A stretch of DNA of 64,000 bases, taken from Brachymonas denitrificans (lineage in GTDB: Bacteria; Pseudomonadota; Gammaproteobacteria; Burkholderiales; Burkholderiaceae_C). The first letter of the stretch is position 1; the number at the start of each line of letters is the position of its first letter. A program made the translations under genes and the position numbers. Shown here piece by piece: positions 57,315 to 64,000 of this stretch. The notes beneath the pieces are model-generated. The model worked only from the letters and a program-made list of their open reading frames with translations. It did not search any database and was not told where the DNA came from. The stretch covers positions 325,001 to 389,000 of the forward strand of contig NZ_CAJQUA010000001.1 in assembly GCF_907163135.1 (NCBI RefSeq), written 5' to 3'.

Positions 57315-57491
57315 ATTTCACGATGACTCCAGCCCGACATTACGACGGACTACGCCCAAGCAAGATACAGCAGGTTTATCAATGACTTAGGCGAGTTCAA
57401 CATATGCCGGTGCTTTCTGAAACCTGACCCGGCTTGTGCTCGCATGGCTCCCATGTGGCTCTTGGAAACCGGGTCGTTCCGAGGAGTCATC

Positions 57492-58697
57492 ATGGCAAAA
57501 CTCAAGCTCACCAAGTCCGCAGTCGATGCGGCGCAACCCCAGGCGCAGGCCGTCGAACTCCGGGACACTATGGTGCCCGGCTTCCTCTGCAAGATCACCC
57601 CGGCGGGCCGCAAGGTGTTCATGCTTCAGTACCGCACGAACGCCGGAGAGCGGCGCAAGCCTGCCTTGGGCCTGTATGGGGAACTGACCGTCGAGCAGGC
57701 CCGCGCCTTGGCCCAGGAGTGGCTGGCCGAGGTGCGCAAGGGCGGTGATCCTGGCGCGGCCAAGGCCGCCGCCCGTGCCGTGCCCACGGTCGCGGAACTG
57801 TGCGGCAAGTTCATGGAGGACTACTCCAAGCTGCGCAACAAGCCCAGCACCCAACGCGGCTATCAGGCCGTCATCGACCGCTGCATCGTTCCGATGCTGG
57901 GCCGGATGAAGGTGCAGGACGTGAAGCGGCCCGATGTGGCCACGGTGATGAAGAAGATGGCCCACAAGCCAGCCGAGGCCAACAACGCCTTCAGCGTGAT
58001 GCGCAGGATGTTCAACCTGGCCGAGGTGTGGGGCTACCGGACGGACGGCACCAACCCGTGCCGCCACGTTCCGATGTACCCGAATGGGAAGGCCACGCAC
58101 CTCATCAGCGATGAGGACATGGCGCGAATCTTCTGCCATCTGGGCAAGCTGGAGGACGAAGGGCTGGAGCCTTACGTCATTCCCCTGGCGATCCGCTTGC
58201 AATTCGAGTTCGCCGCCCGCCGTGGCGAAATCGTCACGCTTCAATGGGATTGGGTGGACTTCGAGAACCGGCGCGTGGTCTGGCCCGACAGCAAGACAGG
58301 CGGCATGTCCAAGCCCATGAGTGAGGAAGCCTACCGACTGCTTTCGACCGCGCCGAGGCAGGACGGAATTCCCCATGTGCTGCCGTCCCCAAGCCATGCG
58401 GGCCAGCACCTGACCACGGGCGAGTATTACGGCGGCTGGTGCCGGGCTCTCAAGGCTGCCGGCGCGGCCCACGTCGGCACGCACGGCATCCGCCACCGCT
58501 CGGCCACGGACATTGCCAACTCGGGCATCCCGGTCAAGGTCGGCATGGCGTTGACGGCGCACAAGACCGTGGCGATGTTCATGCGCTACGTCCACACCGA
58601 GGATGACCCGGTGCGCAAGGCGGCCGATCTGGTGGCGAACCGGCGCAAGATCATCACCGGGGCGCGGCAGCAACAGCCGCAGGAGGCGACGGCATGA
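57492..58697 (+). CDS. Tyrosine recombinase / P4-type integrase
   Basis: A 401-residue integrase. The N-terminal arm-binding domain (DUF4102-like: AKLKLTKSAVDAAQP...RDTMVPGFLCKITPAG) is typical of P4/island integrases. A core-binding domain follows, then the catalytic domain with Arg in AARRGEIVTL, His-x-x-Arg in THGIRHRSA, His in LTAHKTV and the nucleophile Tyr in MRYVH. The ATG at 57492 is preceded by GAGGAG. The intact gene overlaps the truncated DUF1016 gene by four bases. No tRNA gene is adjacent, so the attachment site is not evident. Confidence 0.93.
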   Translation: MAKLKLTKSAVDAAQPQAQAVELRDTMVPGFLCKITPAGRKVFMLQYRTNAGERRKPALGLYGELTVEQARALAQEWLAEVRKGGDPGAAKAAARAVPTVAELCGKFMEDYSKLRNKPSTQRGYQAVIDRCIVPMLGRMKVQDVKRPDVATVMKKMAHKPAEANNAFSVMRRMFNLAEVWGYRTDGTNPCRHVPMYPNGKATHLISDEDMARIFCHLGKLEDEGLEPYVIPLAIRLQFEFAARRGEIVTLQWDWVDFENRRVVWPDSKTGGMSKPMSEEAYRLLSTAPRQDGIPHVLPSPSHAGQHLTTGEYYGGWCRALKAAGAAHVGTHGIRHRSATDIANSGIPVKVGMALTAHKTVAMFMRYVHTEDDPVRKAADLVANRRKIITGARQQQPQEATA

Positions 58698-59004
58698 GCA
58701 CCCGGACACCCAAAGCTATCGCCATGCCTGCCGGCTACGCCGGCATCCACGGCGGCATCGTGGAACTGCTCGATGCCGCTCGCCAGGCGGCGGCGCGCAG
58801 CGTCAATGCGCTGATGACGGCCAGCTATTGGGAGGTTGGCCGCCGCATTGTGGAGGCCGAGCAGCAGGGCAAGCGGCGCGCGGGCTACGGCGAGCAGTTG
58901 ATCGAGCGGCTGTCCGCTGATCTGACCGTGCAGTTCGGGCGCGGGTTCGGCGTCAACAACCTGGAGAACATGCGGCGGTTCTTCCTCGCGTATCCCCGCT
59001 CCGA

Positions 59005-59029
59005 GATTTCCCAGACACTGTCTGGGAAA
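59005..59029 (+). repeat. 25-bp palindrome, copy 1, in-frame within the DUF1016 gene
   Basis: ATTTCCCAGACA-C-TGTCTGGGAAAT is a perfect 12-bp inverted repeat about one base. It encodes part of SEISQTLSGKL. Confidence 0.9.
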
Positions 59030-59053
59030 TTGGGCGGCGGCCCGGCCTCAGAG

Positions 59054-59078
59054 AATTCCCAGACGGTGTCTGGGAATT
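59054..59078 (+). repeat. 25-bp palindrome, copy 2, in-frame within the DUF1016 gene
   Basis: AATTCCCAGAC-GGT-GTCTGGGAATT is an 11-bp perfect inverted repeat with a 3-base centre. It begins 49 bp after copy 1, matches it in 22 of 25 positions or so, and encodes part of SENSQTVSGNL. Confidence 0.9.
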
Positions 59079-59228
59079 TGAGCCTCGTCGAACTGGCGCA
59101 GGTGTTCACGCTGCCGTGGTCGGCCTACGTGCGACTGCTGTCGGTCAAGGACGACCATGCCCGCCGGTTCTACGAAGCCGAATCCCTGCGCGGCGGCTGG
59201 AGCGTGCGCCAGCTTGACCGGCAGATCG

Positions 59229-59635
59229 GCAGACATCATTGCATTCATGGATGGCTCCTCAATGAAAAAGGGCGGATCAACACAAAGCCGCCAGGGCCTG
59301 CGCCACCCAGCTCCGGCACTGCCTTGGCATCGCGTTGCGAGTGCTGGCGCAGCAGCAGGCCGCGCCGTCAGGGGAATGTCGGCGCAAGCACCGCCCACAA
59401 CCAACGCTGTCAAAGCATTTCCCGCTTCATATGGAAGATCGTCAACACATTCAACGTCAGTTGCTCAGGTGGGGTGCACTGCGGTCGCGTCGTTCGCTTT
59501 TTATGCCCACACCAATGTATCGCCGGCCATCCAAGCGATGCGCGCAGCCTGAACGCCCGGGTCGCCCGCATGTCCCAACGAGGCAAGCGCGTTTGCATGA
59601 CAATGAAGCGGTCATAGTTCCCATGGGTACTGCAT
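59229..59635. other. About 400 bp with no recognisable gene between two broken genes
   Basis: No frame on either strand gives a protein I recognise. On the minus strand a GAGGAG ribosome site at about 59250-59255 precedes an ATG (59243 region, MNAMMSADLP), which runs straight into the DUF1016 gene; this looks like the surviving 5' end of a host gene cut by the element insertion. The rest is compositionally like the flanking DNA. Confidence 0.4.
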
Positions 59636-60059
59636 ATGTCTGCTCGTGCATTGGCTCTCTTGCTGGCTCTGGTGCCACCAATGGTGTTGGCCGCATCCCC
59701 CACCCCTGCGCCTGCGCAGGTGGCCGCTGTGGCACGTGAACCGCCGCGGCCTGGTGGTGCTGGGCTTTCCGTCCAACGACTTTTTGCAGGAAAAAAGCGA
59801 CAACAAAGAGATTGCCGAGTTTTGCTACAACACCTATGGCGTGATCTTTCCGATGTTTGCGCGCTCTGCCGTGCGTGGCTCGGATGCCAACCCGTTCTAC
59901 AAGCAACTGGCGCAAATTACGGGCAAGGTTCCGTCCTGGAACTTCAACAAATACCTGATTGACCGCTCTGGGCGTTCGGTGACCCACTACGCCAGCACGG
60001 TCGAGCCTGACAACAAGGCATTTGTGGAGCAGCTGGAAAAGCTGCTTGCCACGCCCTGA
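59636..60059 (+). pseudogene. Glutathione peroxidase pseudogene
   Basis: The ATG at 59636 starts an intact signal peptide (MSARALALLLALVPPMVLAA). Around 59700-59735 the frame changes, and in another frame the C-terminal two thirds of a glutathione peroxidase follow (RGLVVLGFPSNDF; EIAEFCYNTYGVIFPMFA; WNFNKYLIDRSGR). The roughly 50 residues that should lie between, including the catalytic Cys/Sec motif (NTAS-C-GFT type) are absent. Deletion plus frameshift means no functional enzyme can be made. Confidence 0.85.
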
Positions 60060-60117: not shown

Positions 60118-61020
60118 CTATTTTTTTTGCAGCAGCTGCGCCAGCGCCCCCGATAGCTCGGGGTAGCGCCAGACAAAGCCCGCTGCCTGGGCGCGCTGTG
60201 GCACCAGGCGCTGGCCGCCCAGCAGCAGCACCGACATCTCGCCCAGCGCCAGGCGCAGCGCCCAGGCGGGCGCGGGCAGCAGCGCGGGGCGATGCAGGGT
60301 GCGCGCCAGGGTGCGGGTGAAGTCGGCATTGCGCACCGCTTCGGGTGCGCAGGCGTTGAAGGGGCCGCTGGCGTCCTGGTGCTGCAGCAGGTAGTCGATC
60401 AGCGCCACCTGGTCGTCCAGGTGAATCCAGGGCATCCATTGCTGGCCGCTGCCCAGCCGGCCGCCCAGGCCCAGGCGAAACGGTGGCAGCAACCGCGCCA
60501 GCATGCCGCCCTGCGCGGCCAGCACCGGCGCGGTGCGCAGCAGCGCGACGCGCACACCCCATTGGCGCGCCCGCTCGGCCTCTTGTTCCCAGGCCACGCA
60601 CAGACGGCTGCCAAAGTCGGTGTTGCCGGGGGCGCTGTCTTCGGACAGCCATTGCTCGCCGCCGTCGCCATACCAGCCCACGGCCGAGCCCGAAAGCAGC
60701 ACGCGCGGCGGCACGGTCTGCCGGCCTATCCAGTCCACCAGGCTGCGCGTCAAGTCCACGCGGCTGCGCCACAGCAGGGCCTGGCGCGCCTGGGTCCAGG
60801 GGCGATCGGCTATGGGGGCGCCGGCCAGGTTGACCACAGCGTCCATTGGTGGGCCGGCGTCCAGTTCTTGCAACTGCGCAATGCCGCGCGCGCCGCTGCA
60901 CAGCGCGCGCACCTGCTGGGGGCTGCGGCTCCAGACGCAGAGGGCGTGCCCCTGCCGGCTCCAGTGCTGGCACAGCGCGCGGCCAATCAGGCCCGTGCCG
61001 CCGGTAAGTAGGATGCGCAT
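60118..61020 (-). CDS. TIGR01777 family epimerase (SDR a11)
   Basis: A 300-residue extended short-chain dehydrogenase-like protein of the TIGR01777/YfcH family. The N-terminus MRILLTGGTGLIGRALC carries the NAD(P) motif, then NLAGAPIADRPW, SGSAVGWYGDGG and the C-terminal DUF1731-like part (GEMSVLLLGGQRLVPQRAQAAGFVWRYP). Reaction unknown. AAGGAG lies eight bases before ATG 61020. It is the last gene of the five-gene light-linked operon, 37 bp after the SDR. In other bacteria it also accompanies photolyase genes. Confidence 0.9.
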   Translation of the reverse strand: MRILLTGGTGLIGRALCQHWSRQGHALCVWSRSPQQVRALCSGARGIAQLQELDAGPPMDAVVNLAGAPIADRPWTQARQALLWRSRVDLTRSLVDWIGRQTVPPRVLLSGSAVGWYGDGGEQWLSEDSAPGNTDFGSRLCVAWEQEAERARQWGVRVALLRTAPVLAAQGGMLARLLPPFRLGLGGRLGSGQQWMPWIHLDDQVALIDYLLQHQDASGPFNACAPEAVRNADFTRTLARTLHRPALLPAPAWALRLALGEMSVLLLGGQRLVPQRAQAAGFVWRYPELSGALAQLLQKK

Positions 61021-61057
61021 GGTGGCATCTCCTTTCGTCAATGTGTTGATGGCCCCG

Positions 61058-61756
61058 TCACCAAGGCAGGCGCTGGCCGTCGTAGGCCCAGAAGCCGCCG
61101 CTGTCCTCTGGGGTCAGGTGGTCGAGCACCGCCAGTAAGTCGCACGCCGCATCCTGCGCGGGCCGCCCGATCTGCGCGCCGCGAAACGGGGCCGACAGGG
61201 CCGAATCCACCGTGCCTGGGTGCAGCGCCGCCAGCACGCACTGCGGGTGGGTGCGGTCCAACTCGATGGCGGCGGTCTTCACCACCATGTTCAGCGCGGA
61301 CTTGGACGCGCGGTAGCTGACCCAGCCGCCCAGGCGGTTGTCGCCAATGCTGCCCACCTTGGCCGATAGCACGGCGAAAAGGCTGCGCTCGTCGCGCGCC
61401 AGTTGCGGGGCGAAGTGCGCCAGCGCTAGCGCCGGGCCGATGGTGTTGATGGCGAAGCTGGCGGCCATGTGGTCGGCCTGGAGTTCGGCAAGTCGTTTCT
61501 CAGGGTTGCCGGTGGGGCCCTGCAGCATGCCGGTGGCCACCAGCACCAGATGCCAGGGCCCTTCGGCGTGCAGGGCCTGGGCTGCGGCAGCGATGCTGCC
61601 GGGCGCACCAAAGTCCAGCGCAGGTGTGCTGCCGCGCGCCAGCGTGCGCACCGCGGCGCAGCGCGGGTCGGTGCGCAATTGCGCGGCCATTGCGCCGCCA
61701 ATGGCGCCGGTGGCGCCCAGCACCAGGGCGCGGTAACCGTCGGGCAGGGATTGCAT
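61058..61756 (-). CDS. Short-chain dehydrogenase/reductase (C-factor type)
   Basis: A 232-residue SDR. The coenzyme motif LVLGATGAIGGAM is at residues 11-23, and the catalytic Ser-Tyr-Lys are in VLSAKVGS, SYRASK. The C-terminus (ALHPGTVDSALSAPF) resembles C-signal (CsgA)-like SDRs often found next to photolyase genes in proteobacteria. Substrate unknown. It is 17 bp after the photolyase-like gene. Confidence 0.9.
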   Translation of the reverse strand: MQSLPDGYRALVLGATGAIGGAMAAQLRTDPRCAAVRTLARGSTPALDFGAPGSIAAAAQALHAEGPWHLVLVATGMLQGPTGNPEKRLAELQADHMAASFAINTIGPALALAHFAPQLARDERSLFAVLSAKVGSIGDNRLGGWVSYRASKSALNMVVKTAAIELDRTHPQCVLAALHPGTVDSALSAPFRGAQIGRPAQDAACDLLAVLDHLTPEDSGGFWAYDGQRLPW

Positions 61757-61773
61757 GGCGGTAGGGCCTTTCG

Positions 61774-62856
61774 TCAAAGGGTTTCCAGCCGCTGGCGCAG
61801 CTGCGTGGCCTGCGCGCGCAGGGCGGTTTGCTGGGGCTCGTCCATCTTCTGCCACTGGCGGTACACCAGGGCCAGGCGCGGGTTGCCTTGCAGCGCCGGG
61901 GCGTGGCGCGCAAAAAAGTCCCAGTATAGGGCGTTGAAGGGGCAGGCGCGCGCGCCGGTCTTTTGCTTGGGGTCGTAGGCGCAGCCCCGGCAATAGTCGC
62001 CCATGCGCTGCAGGTAGGCGGCGCTGCTCACGTAGGGCTTGGTGGCGATCACGCCGCCATCGGCGCGCTGGCTCATGCCCAGGGTGTTGGGCAGTTCCAC
62101 CCACTCAAAGGCGTCGATGTAAATGCCCAGGTACCAGCGGTGCAGCGCCTGCGGCTCCAGCCCGGCGAGCAGCGCGAAATTGCCAATCACCATCAGCCGC
62201 TGGATATGGTGCGCGTGCGCTGTCTGCAGCGACTGGGTGATGGCCAGGTGCAGGCAGCGCATGCGTGTGTCGCCGCTCCAGAACCAGTGCGGCAGCGGCT
62301 GGTGGTGGCCCAGCGCGTTGTGCGCGTCGTAACCCGGCATGTGCGCCCAGTAGATGCCGCGCACGTATTCGCGCCAGCCCAGAATCTGGCGCACGAACCC
62401 CTCCACCGCGGCCAGCGGGGCCTGGCCGCTGCGCCACGCACCCTCGGCGCGCTGCAGCACCTCCAGCGGGTGCAGCATCTTCACTTGCCAGCCCACGCAG
62501 TGCTGGCGGCACCAGCGCGCCACGGCCAGGTCGCGGGCGTAGGTGTGGGCGTTGCCGGTTTCTTCGTGCGAGGCCAGGCGCGCAAAGGGCTGCAGCGCAT
62601 GCAGGTGCGCCAGCACCTCGGGCACCTCGCCCACGGCCAGCTGCAGCGTGGCGCCACAGGTGCGCAATTGCAGGGCCAGGTCGCGCAGGCTTTCGCGCAG
62701 AAAACCGTAGTGCTGCAGCGCGCAGTCGGGCTGCGCCCACAGGCTGGGCTCCAGCACGTACAGGCACAGCACCGGGCCCTGGCGCGCGGCGTGGATCAGC
62801 GGCGCGTGGTCATGCACGCGCAGGTCGCGTTTGAACCAGACGACGGTGTAGGCCAT
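61774..62856 (-). CDS. Chimeric photolyase-like protein: class I N-terminus joined to FeS-BCP C-terminus
   Basis: A 360-residue protein, much shorter than the 450-520 residues of normal photolyases. Residues 1-125 match the antenna-chromophore domain of class I CPD photolyases (VVWFKRDLRVHDHAPL; SHEETGNAHTYARD). From about 130 to the end it matches the C-terminal FAD domain of iron-sulfur bacterial photolyases (FeS-BCP): WREYVRGIYWAHMPGY, MVIGNFALLAGL, WVELPNTLGMSQ. The four likely 4Fe-4S cysteines are present (RMRCLHL; YCRGC; RACPFN). The rest of the class I enzyme and the first half of the FeS-BCP enzyme are missing. The frame is open through the join, so a protein can be made, but its activity is uncertain. 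Confidence 0.82.
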   Translation of the reverse strand: MAYTVVWFKRDLRVHDHAPLIHAARQGPVLCLYVLEPSLWAQPDCALQHYGFLRESLRDLALQLRTCGATLQLAVGEVPEVLAHLHALQPFARLASHEETGNAHTYARDLAVARWCRQHCVGWQVKMLHPLEVLQRAEGAWRSGQAPLAAVEGFVRQILGWREYVRGIYWAHMPGYDAHNALGHHQPLPHWFWSGDTRMRCLHLAITQSLQTAHAHHIQRLMVIGNFALLAGLEPQALHRWYLGIYIDAFEWVELPNTLGMSQRADGGVIATKPYVSSAAYLQRMGDYCRGCAYDPKQKTGARACPFNALYWDFFARHAPALQGNPRLALVYRQWQKMDEPQQTALRAQATQLRQRLETL

Positions 62857-62895: not shown

Positions 62896-63498
62896 TCAGT
62901 GCGCCGGGTCCTGGCGCTCGTGCGTGACCCAGATGAGCGCGGCGGTATCGACCCCCAGCGCGCGCGCCTGGGCGACGATGGCGTTTTGCTGTGCCGGGGC
63001 GATGTGCTTGTCGCGCGCCAGAATCCAGGCGTAACCCGTATCAGGCCCCACGACCAGGGCCCAGCGGTAGTCCGGGTCCAGCGCGGCGACGTGGTAGCCG
63101 CCGTAGAACGGCCCGAAGAACGACACCTTGAGCGACGCCGTGGTGGGCGCGCCGGTGAACAGGGCTTTGCCCACGGCTTCGCGCCACTGGCCGCTGGCCG
63201 GGGCATAGCCGCGGTTGACCACGCGCACGCTGCCGTCGGCCTGCGCGGTATAGGTGGCGGACACATCGGTCATGCCGCGCTCAAAGGCGTGATCCAGGCG
63301 CGCCAGCTCATACCAGCGGCCCTGGTAGCGCTGCATGTCAAACGGCGTCACGGCGGTCACGCCCTGCGGCGGGCGGGTGCTGGCGCAGCCCGCCAGCAGC
63401 AGGACAGTGCCGGCCAGCAGCAGGGCCAGCAGTGCCAGGCGATGGCGATGCTGGCGCGATGGGCGGGCGCTACGCAGGGTGCGGGCGGCGGTGTGCAT
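62896..63498 (-). CDS. Lipocalin lipoprotein (Blc type)
   Basis: A 200-residue outer-membrane lipoprotein. A long signal sequence (LALLALLLAGTVLLLAGC) ends in a lipobox, followed by the lipocalin signature DMQRYQGRWYELARLD (G-x-W) and the later YAWILARDK. Blc-type lipocalins bind lipids or lysophospholipids. In Comamonadaceae and others it frequently lies in light-regulated photolyase clusters. It is 18 bp after the MerR/B12 gene and 39 bp before the photolyase-like gene. Confidence 0.92.
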   Translation of the reverse strand: MHTAARTLRSARPSRQHRHRLALLALLLAGTVLLLAGCASTRPPQGVTAVTPFDMQRYQGRWYELARLDHAFERGMTDVSATYTAQADGSVRVVNRGYAPASGQWREAVGKALFTGAPTTASLKVSFFGPFYGGYHVAALDPDYRWALVVGPDTGYAWILARDKHIAPAQQNAIVAQARALGVDTAALIWVTHERQDPAH

Positions 63499-63516: not shown

Positions 63517-64000
63517 TCATTGGCCGCGGCGCCACTGCGCCACCAGCGGTTGCAGGGCAGGCAGCTGCGCCACGGCGCTAACGCCTGCCAGCGGCCGCTG
63601 GTACAGCGCGGTGCAGGCGCCACCCACCCACAGCGCGGTGGCGGGGGGCAGTTGCGCGCGCAGCTCGCGCAGGCTGGCCTGCACCAGGGCGGGTTTGTGC
63701 ACGTTGCTGAAGCTCAGGGCCACCACGTCGGCGCGGTGGGCCCGCGCGGCCTGCGCAATGTCGGTCAGCGGCGTTTGCGTGCCCAGCGACACGCAGGTGC
63801 AGCCCTCCAGCGCCAACAGGGCTTCCACCATCAGCAGGCCCAGGCTGTGCTGCTCTTGCGGCAGCGTGGTCAGCAGCACCTTGGGGCCCAGCGGCACGGG
63901 CTGCGGCGCCAGCGTGGAAATGGCATGGCGCAGCACGCCGGTGATGACCTCGGTGTACAGGTGCTCCTCGTAAATCTCGAAGCGGCCCTGCGCCCAGGCG
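63517..64000 (-). CDS. MerR-family B12-dependent light sensor (LitR/CarH type), C-terminal part
   Basis: The gene enters from beyond the window; about 160 C-terminal residues are seen. They contain the four-helix cap and the cobalamin-binding domain (PQEQHSLGLLMVEALLAL with the E-x-x-H-x-x-G-type cobalamin histidine; CVSLGTQTP). The cap carries W-x9-EH (W in AWAQGRFEIYEEH), the signature of adenosylcobalamin photoreceptors such as CarH and LitR. The MerR-type DNA-binding domain should lie upstream, outside the window. In the dark such proteins repress; light breaks the Co-C bond and releases DNA. It heads the operon. Confidence 0.85.
   Translation of the reverse strand, partial: AWAQGRFEIYEEHLYTEVITGVLRHAISTLAPQPVPLGPKVLLTTLPQEQHSLGLLMVEALLALEGCTCVSLGTQTPLTDIAQAARAHRADVVALSFSNVHKPALVQASLRELRAQLPPATALWVGGACTALYQRPLAGVSAVAQLPALQPLVAQWRRGQ

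Follow-up and report, generated by a model that had tools for sequence, protein, structure and literature searches.

What becomes of a photolyase gene whose front comes from one family and whose back comes from another: a new enzyme, a domain kept for some other use, or the remnant of a deletion? This question is posed by a fused photolyase gene in a stretch of Brachymonas denitrificans DNA (contig NZ_CAJQUA010000001.1, positions 325,001 to 389,000; the whole stretch of 64,000 nucleotides is referred to as the window). The gene is an open frame on the minus strand that starts with ATG and encodes 360 amino acids (Table 1). Judging from sequence comparison and structure prediction, we consider it likely that the gene is the relic of a recent in-frame deletion, with a product unable to hold flavin adenine dinucleotide (FAD) and dead as a photolyase.

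Two photolyase families in one reading frame

A preliminary description, made from the letters of the window, had proposed that two photolyase families meet in this single open frame, and the frame coordinates, Pfam matches and alignments to the sequences of solved structures bear this out. PF00875 is the sole Pfam domain in the chimera (residues 4-124; 73.3 bits, cut-off 26.6), and the match is partial, covering profile positions 1-121 of 164. Class-I and cryptochrome structures align by sequence only within residues 3-148, and solved structures of FeS-BCP enzymes within residues 122-359 (best 3zxs_A, E 9.3e-90). As a likeness to the FeS-BCP or prokaryotic (6-4) photolyases (PhrB, CryB, Cc(6-4)PL), PhrB residues 276-507 align without a gap to chimera residues 127-358. 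Two Pfam domains of the intact enzymes are unmatched in the chimera, namely the N-terminal DPRP domain PF04244, for which the intact FeS-BCP parent scores 265.3 bits, and the FAD-binding domain PF03441, which the other parent carries at residues 273-471.

The front half had initially been assigned to a class I cyclobutane pyrimidine dimer (CPD) photolyase. Because this parent stays below every NCBIfam cut-off, we call it class-I-like, its status as a class I CPD photolyase being unproven. Its closeness to proteobacterial photolyases/cryptochromes of this kind is illustrated by P0125 from Comamonas granuli, which shares 85% identity with it over the stretch that was compared (residues 1-125).

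Intact parents and the origin of the join

We searched 60 genomes, including the chimera's own, and found matches at E <= 0.001 in 36. B. denitrificans DSM 15123 (G004) and B. chironomi DSM 19884 (G002), both of the same genus, have the two halves apart. In G004, they match two separate places on one contig, at 94% identity for the N-terminal part (residues 1-126) and 97% for the C-terminal part (residues 124-360); the match in G002 is divided in the same way, at 81% and 87%. G004 holds both parents at full length, a class-I-like protein of 515 amino acids and an FeS-BCP of 513, the latter measured from the Met at which the match to the family begins (its mechanical open frame has 1161 amino acids because the frame stays open further upstream). 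The metagenome-assembled genome (MAG) 68-10 shows the gene order of G004, and its parents are both full length, stop-free, and 96.5% and 95.5% identical to those of G004. The preliminary description had named a relative with both full-length genes as a check on its proposal, and G004 and MAG 68-10 are such relatives. Chimera residues 1-124 differ from G004 at 5 of 124 positions and from MAG 68-10 at 4 of 124, and codons 125-360 differ from MAG 68-10 at 3 of 236 residues.

The order in G004 runs LitR-type MerR/B12 regulator, lipocalin, class-I-like photolyase, small gene, DASH-like photolyase, FeS-BCP, short-chain dehydrogenase (SDR) and TIGR01777-like epimerase. We take the small gene to be DUF2256, and the labels DASH-like and TIGR01777-like are likewise our presumption. 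These two intervening genes separate the parents in G004 and MAG 68-10, whereas in G002 the parents adjoin directly. Of the originally proposed deletion between neighbouring photolyase genes, the deletion itself is supported by the intact parents and the missing stretch; direct neighbourhood holds for G002 but not for G004 or MAG 68-10. As a separate observation, the DASH-like gene is split over two frames in G004 (L035:3823-5200, minus strand) and forms a single open frame in MAG 68-10.

When we compared the chimera's own 20-kb stretch with G004 by blastn, two collinear segments met at one base, window position 62484, which refines an earlier placement near 62480; 3,472 bp of G004 have no counterpart in the window. 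Beyond that base, the comparison with G004, from which the true ancestor may have differed in sequence, shows no microhomology. We infer that the arrangement of the sister genomes is ancestral and that the change was one deletion. The fusion likely arose by a single ~3.5-kb deletion within a predicted light-response operon, which would have joined the first 124 class-I-like codons in frame to the last 236 FeS-BCP codons. An in-frame deletion fusion links a gene's 5' end with the 3' end of another gene further along the same strand. Unlike such fusions in general, this one unites distant paralogues of one superfamily, with the join lying immediately behind the HSxLS loop encoded by the second gene.

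Could an assembly artefact have misjoined two photolyase genes? The genome does have other photolyase genes. However, the join is in frame and lies inside a 2.71-Mb contig, PF04244 has no match anywhere in the genome at E <= 0.001, and the same join recurs in P0001, a separate cluster of public proteins (20 members, source ENA; contig 1,940 bp; 95% identical to the chimera). Since P0001 has the same join, misassembly of the fused gene is unlikely, and taking all points together we regard an artefact as extremely improbable. P0001 and the window differ at 17 of 360 residues, 15 of these between 269 and 358. They have His84 and Cys120 in common, where 68-10, denitrificans and chironomi carry other residues, which fits one common origin. 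In residues 269-360, P0001 shows 15 differences in 92 from the window, 4 from B. chironomi and 2 from the protein P0003; by sequence, its 3' part looks either recombined between strains or like a chimeric assembly.

Among 239 proteins (the best 120 of 8000 matches plus the best 120 of 4258), only P0001 has both halves. A family scan matched 208 of 399 genomes at 1e-20 or better, and among the matches listed a single match spanning residues 1-360 was found only in the chimera's own genome. In the FeS-BCP locus comparison, which covered 80 of 460 loci, the FeS-BCP match extends to parent residue 65 or earlier, with some matches cut by contig ends, and 30 of the 80 also contain the class-I-like parent (>55% identity, >250 aa). 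A fusion family spread across many genera, which the preliminary description had named as contrary evidence, did not appear among the matches listed in the 60-genome, protein, locus and 399-genome searches. A literature search covering titles and abstract openings returned no description of this fusion; a single paper mentions both Brachymonas and photolyase, and it deals with Janthinobacterium. We also considered a natural minimal family consisting of the C half alone and rejected it: P0003, P0012, P0017, P0021, P0025 and P0074 (254-377 aa) retain the HSLLS loop, and P0091 (206 aa), which is without it, looks like a fragment. Two of the 80 FeS-BCP loci appear damaged, one in Comamonas granuli with a stop inside the FeS-BCP match (L055:5173-6645), and one in a MAG where the match falls into two pieces in different frames (L089:4704-6243).

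What the product keeps and what it has lost

Compared with its 513-residue FeS-BCP parent, the 360-residue chimera is without everything before parent residue 278, including the PF04244 domain and the loop LFHSLLSF. The HSxLS pattern of this loop, present in every one of the 80 FeS-BCP loci, is missing from the chimera. Its counterpart in the class-I-like parent, SRLSPYL (from residue 228), is also lost, as part of the remaining 391 residues of that parent, which include PF03441. We take the loop to contact the flavin phosphates, as in the superfamily at large; for FeS-BCP, this presumed role rests on the conservation of the loop and on its function in the superfamily. AlphaFold gave the chimera a predicted local distance difference test (pLDDT) of 65.1 and a predicted template modelling score (pTM) of 0.41, compared to 82.6 and 0.87 for the intact parent. 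The flavin core was poorly predicted, as were residues 154-267, which contain the first cysteine (201). The flavin site thus presumably does not form, and the product, likely unable to hold FAD, is therefore likely dead as a repair enzyme. The preliminary description had left a dead product and a new minimal Fe-S flavoprotein side by side; the absence of both the HSxLS loop and the N-terminal domain of FeS-BCP, together with the poorly predicted flavin core, favours the former.

Several observations weigh against a dead relic. The Fe-S ligands and the residues on the flavin-ring side are kept, as is the whole frame in P0001, which retains the cysteines despite 17 differences in 360 residues and does not differ from the window at all between residues 125 and 268. 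For residues 281-360, prediction quality matches that of the parent (86 vs 84), and part of the overall gap in prediction quality may be an alignment effect, since the input alignments differed (75 rows for the chimera, nearly all half-length; 38 full-length rows for the parent). Nor do substitution counts favour a dead gene, and they weigh most heavily against a simple relic. Counting bases of the chimera's own sequence that differ where 68-10, denitrificans and chironomi agree, we found that all 10 changes in the C half were synonymous, an outcome with a probability of ~1e-6 to 2e-5 if the whole branch evolved neutrally; the N half has one change of each kind. The intact sister lineages look less constrained in the C half (5 synonymous and 2 nonsynonymous for 68-10, 1 and 3 for denitrificans; N half 3 and 0, and 4 and 3, respectively). 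Finally, the erosion of the photolyase cluster in the genus Brachymonas, into which a relic would fit, is plausible but not proven. The DASH-like gene is without a match in G002, and 6 of 8 other same-genus genomes (completeness 62-94%) have no match to either half; the absence in G002 may, however, be ancestral, several of the 80 loci also being without a match.

By these counts, the C half was under constraint over most of its own branch, and the constraint may or may not have outlasted the deletion. The counts thus point either to a recent deletion or to a half still used for something other than repair. Among the neighbours, own-lineage synonymous and nonsynonymous changes number 3 and 3 (epimerase), 2 and 2 (lipocalin) and 2 and 0 (LitR). 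The downstream SDR gene, unlike the C half of the fused gene, has 13 and 10.

Two readings would give the product a function. All four [4Fe-4S] cysteine positions are present by alignment to PhrB, the ligands of which are taken from the available part of PMC3204975. With residue roles according to an excerpt of PMC4619345, PhrB His366 and the electron-transfer residues Trp342 and Trp390 correspond to chimera His217, Trp193 and Trp241; Tyr424 and Tyr430 are also conserved, and Tyr399 is replaced by Phe. The Caulobacter flavin-ring contacts Arg368, Asp396 and Asn405 (roles as given in part of PMC12082625) are present as well. These residues, and the zero nonsynonymous own-lineage changes in the C half, would suit a working minimal Fe-S flavoprotein in which the class-I domain replaces the FeS-BCP antenna and the retained half binds FAD and performs light chemistry. 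We consider this very unlikely.

In the second, the C half would fold round the [4Fe-4S] cluster as a small DNA-contacting domain, much like the Fe-S domain of archaeal/eukaryotic primase, with a non-photochemical role in the light operon. The well-predicted residues 281-360, the four cysteines kept in both the chimera and P0001, and the ratio of 0 nonsynonymous to 10 synonymous changes argue for such a flavin-free protein, as does the reported resemblance in structure between the active-site region of photolyases and PriL-CTD with its four cluster cysteines (PMC3204975, available part). Yet the poorly predicted stretch 154-267 includes the first cysteine, and a very recent deletion accounts equally well for the substitution counts. 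Moreover, PhrB variants of the cluster cysteines were unexpressed or insoluble (PMC4619345, excerpt), so that the cluster is part of a fold which the deletion has truncated. Overall, we find a flavin-free protein unlikely. Its more specific form, a new light-inducible Fe-S protein with a primase-like [4Fe-4S] DNA-contacting domain and a Rossmann-type cap, kept by purifying selection, seems quite improbable. If the gene is instead a deletion relic, its frame may still be open owing to the young age of the event, or since a relic that stays in frame spares the downstream genes polar effects.

Short photolyase-like proteins (SPL), so far as the accessible part of their description goes, resemble the chimera in being shorter than usual photolyases. 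SPLs lack the antenna domain and keep the flavin domain, the reverse of the chimera; the two are likened by description only.

The predicted light-response setting and the probable loss of (6-4) repair

The fused gene lies between a lipocalin-like gene with a LitR-type regulator and an SDR gene with an epimerase gene (Table 1). The regulator is stop-free over 326 codons in the extended locus, and the corresponding G004 protein has MerR_1 and B12-binding domains. In Pseudomonas mendocina, a LitR-linked region (photolyase, SDR, FAD-dependent oxidoreductase) is light-induced, with phrB rising ~27- to 33-fold (PMC9758184, cited from part of the text). Because of the similarity to this region, transcription of the fused gene's operon may by analogy follow light via the LitR-type regulator. 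Farther away, at 57444-60059, a phage-type integrase (PF00589), a seemingly shortened DUF1016_N gene and an open frame for just the C-terminal portion of a glutathione peroxidase (PF00255, matched only from profile position 50 on) stand in a row, possibly the remains of an integrated element beside a truncated gene.

Table 1. Positions in the window of the fused gene, its parts and its neighbours
Feature	Position	Strand	Basis
Fused photolyase open reading frame	61774..62856	-	open frame; parents identified by homology
Codons 1-124, class-I-like photolyase/cryptochrome origin (PF00875, partial)	62485..62856	-	Pfam; G004 / MAG 68-10 comparison
Likely deletion join, single base fitting either side	62484..62484	-	two blastn segments meet at L004:7484 = L035:2995 and L035:6468
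Codons 125-360 and stop, C-terminal half of FeS-BCP (6-4) photolyase	61774..62484	-	PhrB and G004 / MAG 68-10 alignment
Codon of Cys201 (PhrB Cys350), Fe-S ligand position	62254..62256	-	alignment to PhrB
Codon of Cys289 (PhrB Cys438), Fe-S ligand position	61990..61992	-	alignment to PhrB
Codon of Cys292 (PhrB Cys441), Fe-S ligand position	61981..61983	-	alignment to PhrB
Codon of Cys305 (PhrB Cys454), Fe-S ligand position	61942..61944	-	alignment to PhrB
Lipocalin-like gene, directly upstream, 39 nt before the ATG of the fused gene	62896..63498	-	PF08212
LitR-type MerR/B12-binding regulator, continuing past the end of the window	63517..64000	-	98% identical to 326-aa G004 protein
SDR, directly downstream	61058..61759	-	PF00106
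Epimerase / DUF1731 gene, next downstream after SDR	60118..61041	-	PF01370 + PF08338

Elsewhere in the genome, two further open frames, of 497 and 565 aa, carry PF03441 matches; both score best with NCBIfam photolyase models, below the cut-offs. Because PF04244 is unmatched and PF03441 is matched twice, the lineage has likely lost (6-4) photorepair and keeps two class-I-type photolyases. The cell would then rely on these two full-length enzymes and presumably on excision repair.

The fusion probably represents what is left of a dwindling light-repair toolkit and not a new enzyme. As such, it would give a clear picture of how light-driven repair may disappear from a lineage, with the break point resolved to one base, the intact arrangement surviving in sister genomes and the fused allele found in another public sequence as well. 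Should the product prove functional, nature would have provided a test of what the conserved photolyase Fe-S cluster can do without a flavin site. With no FeS-BCP that can be recognised, the organism is predicted to be defective specifically in (6-4) photoreactivation.
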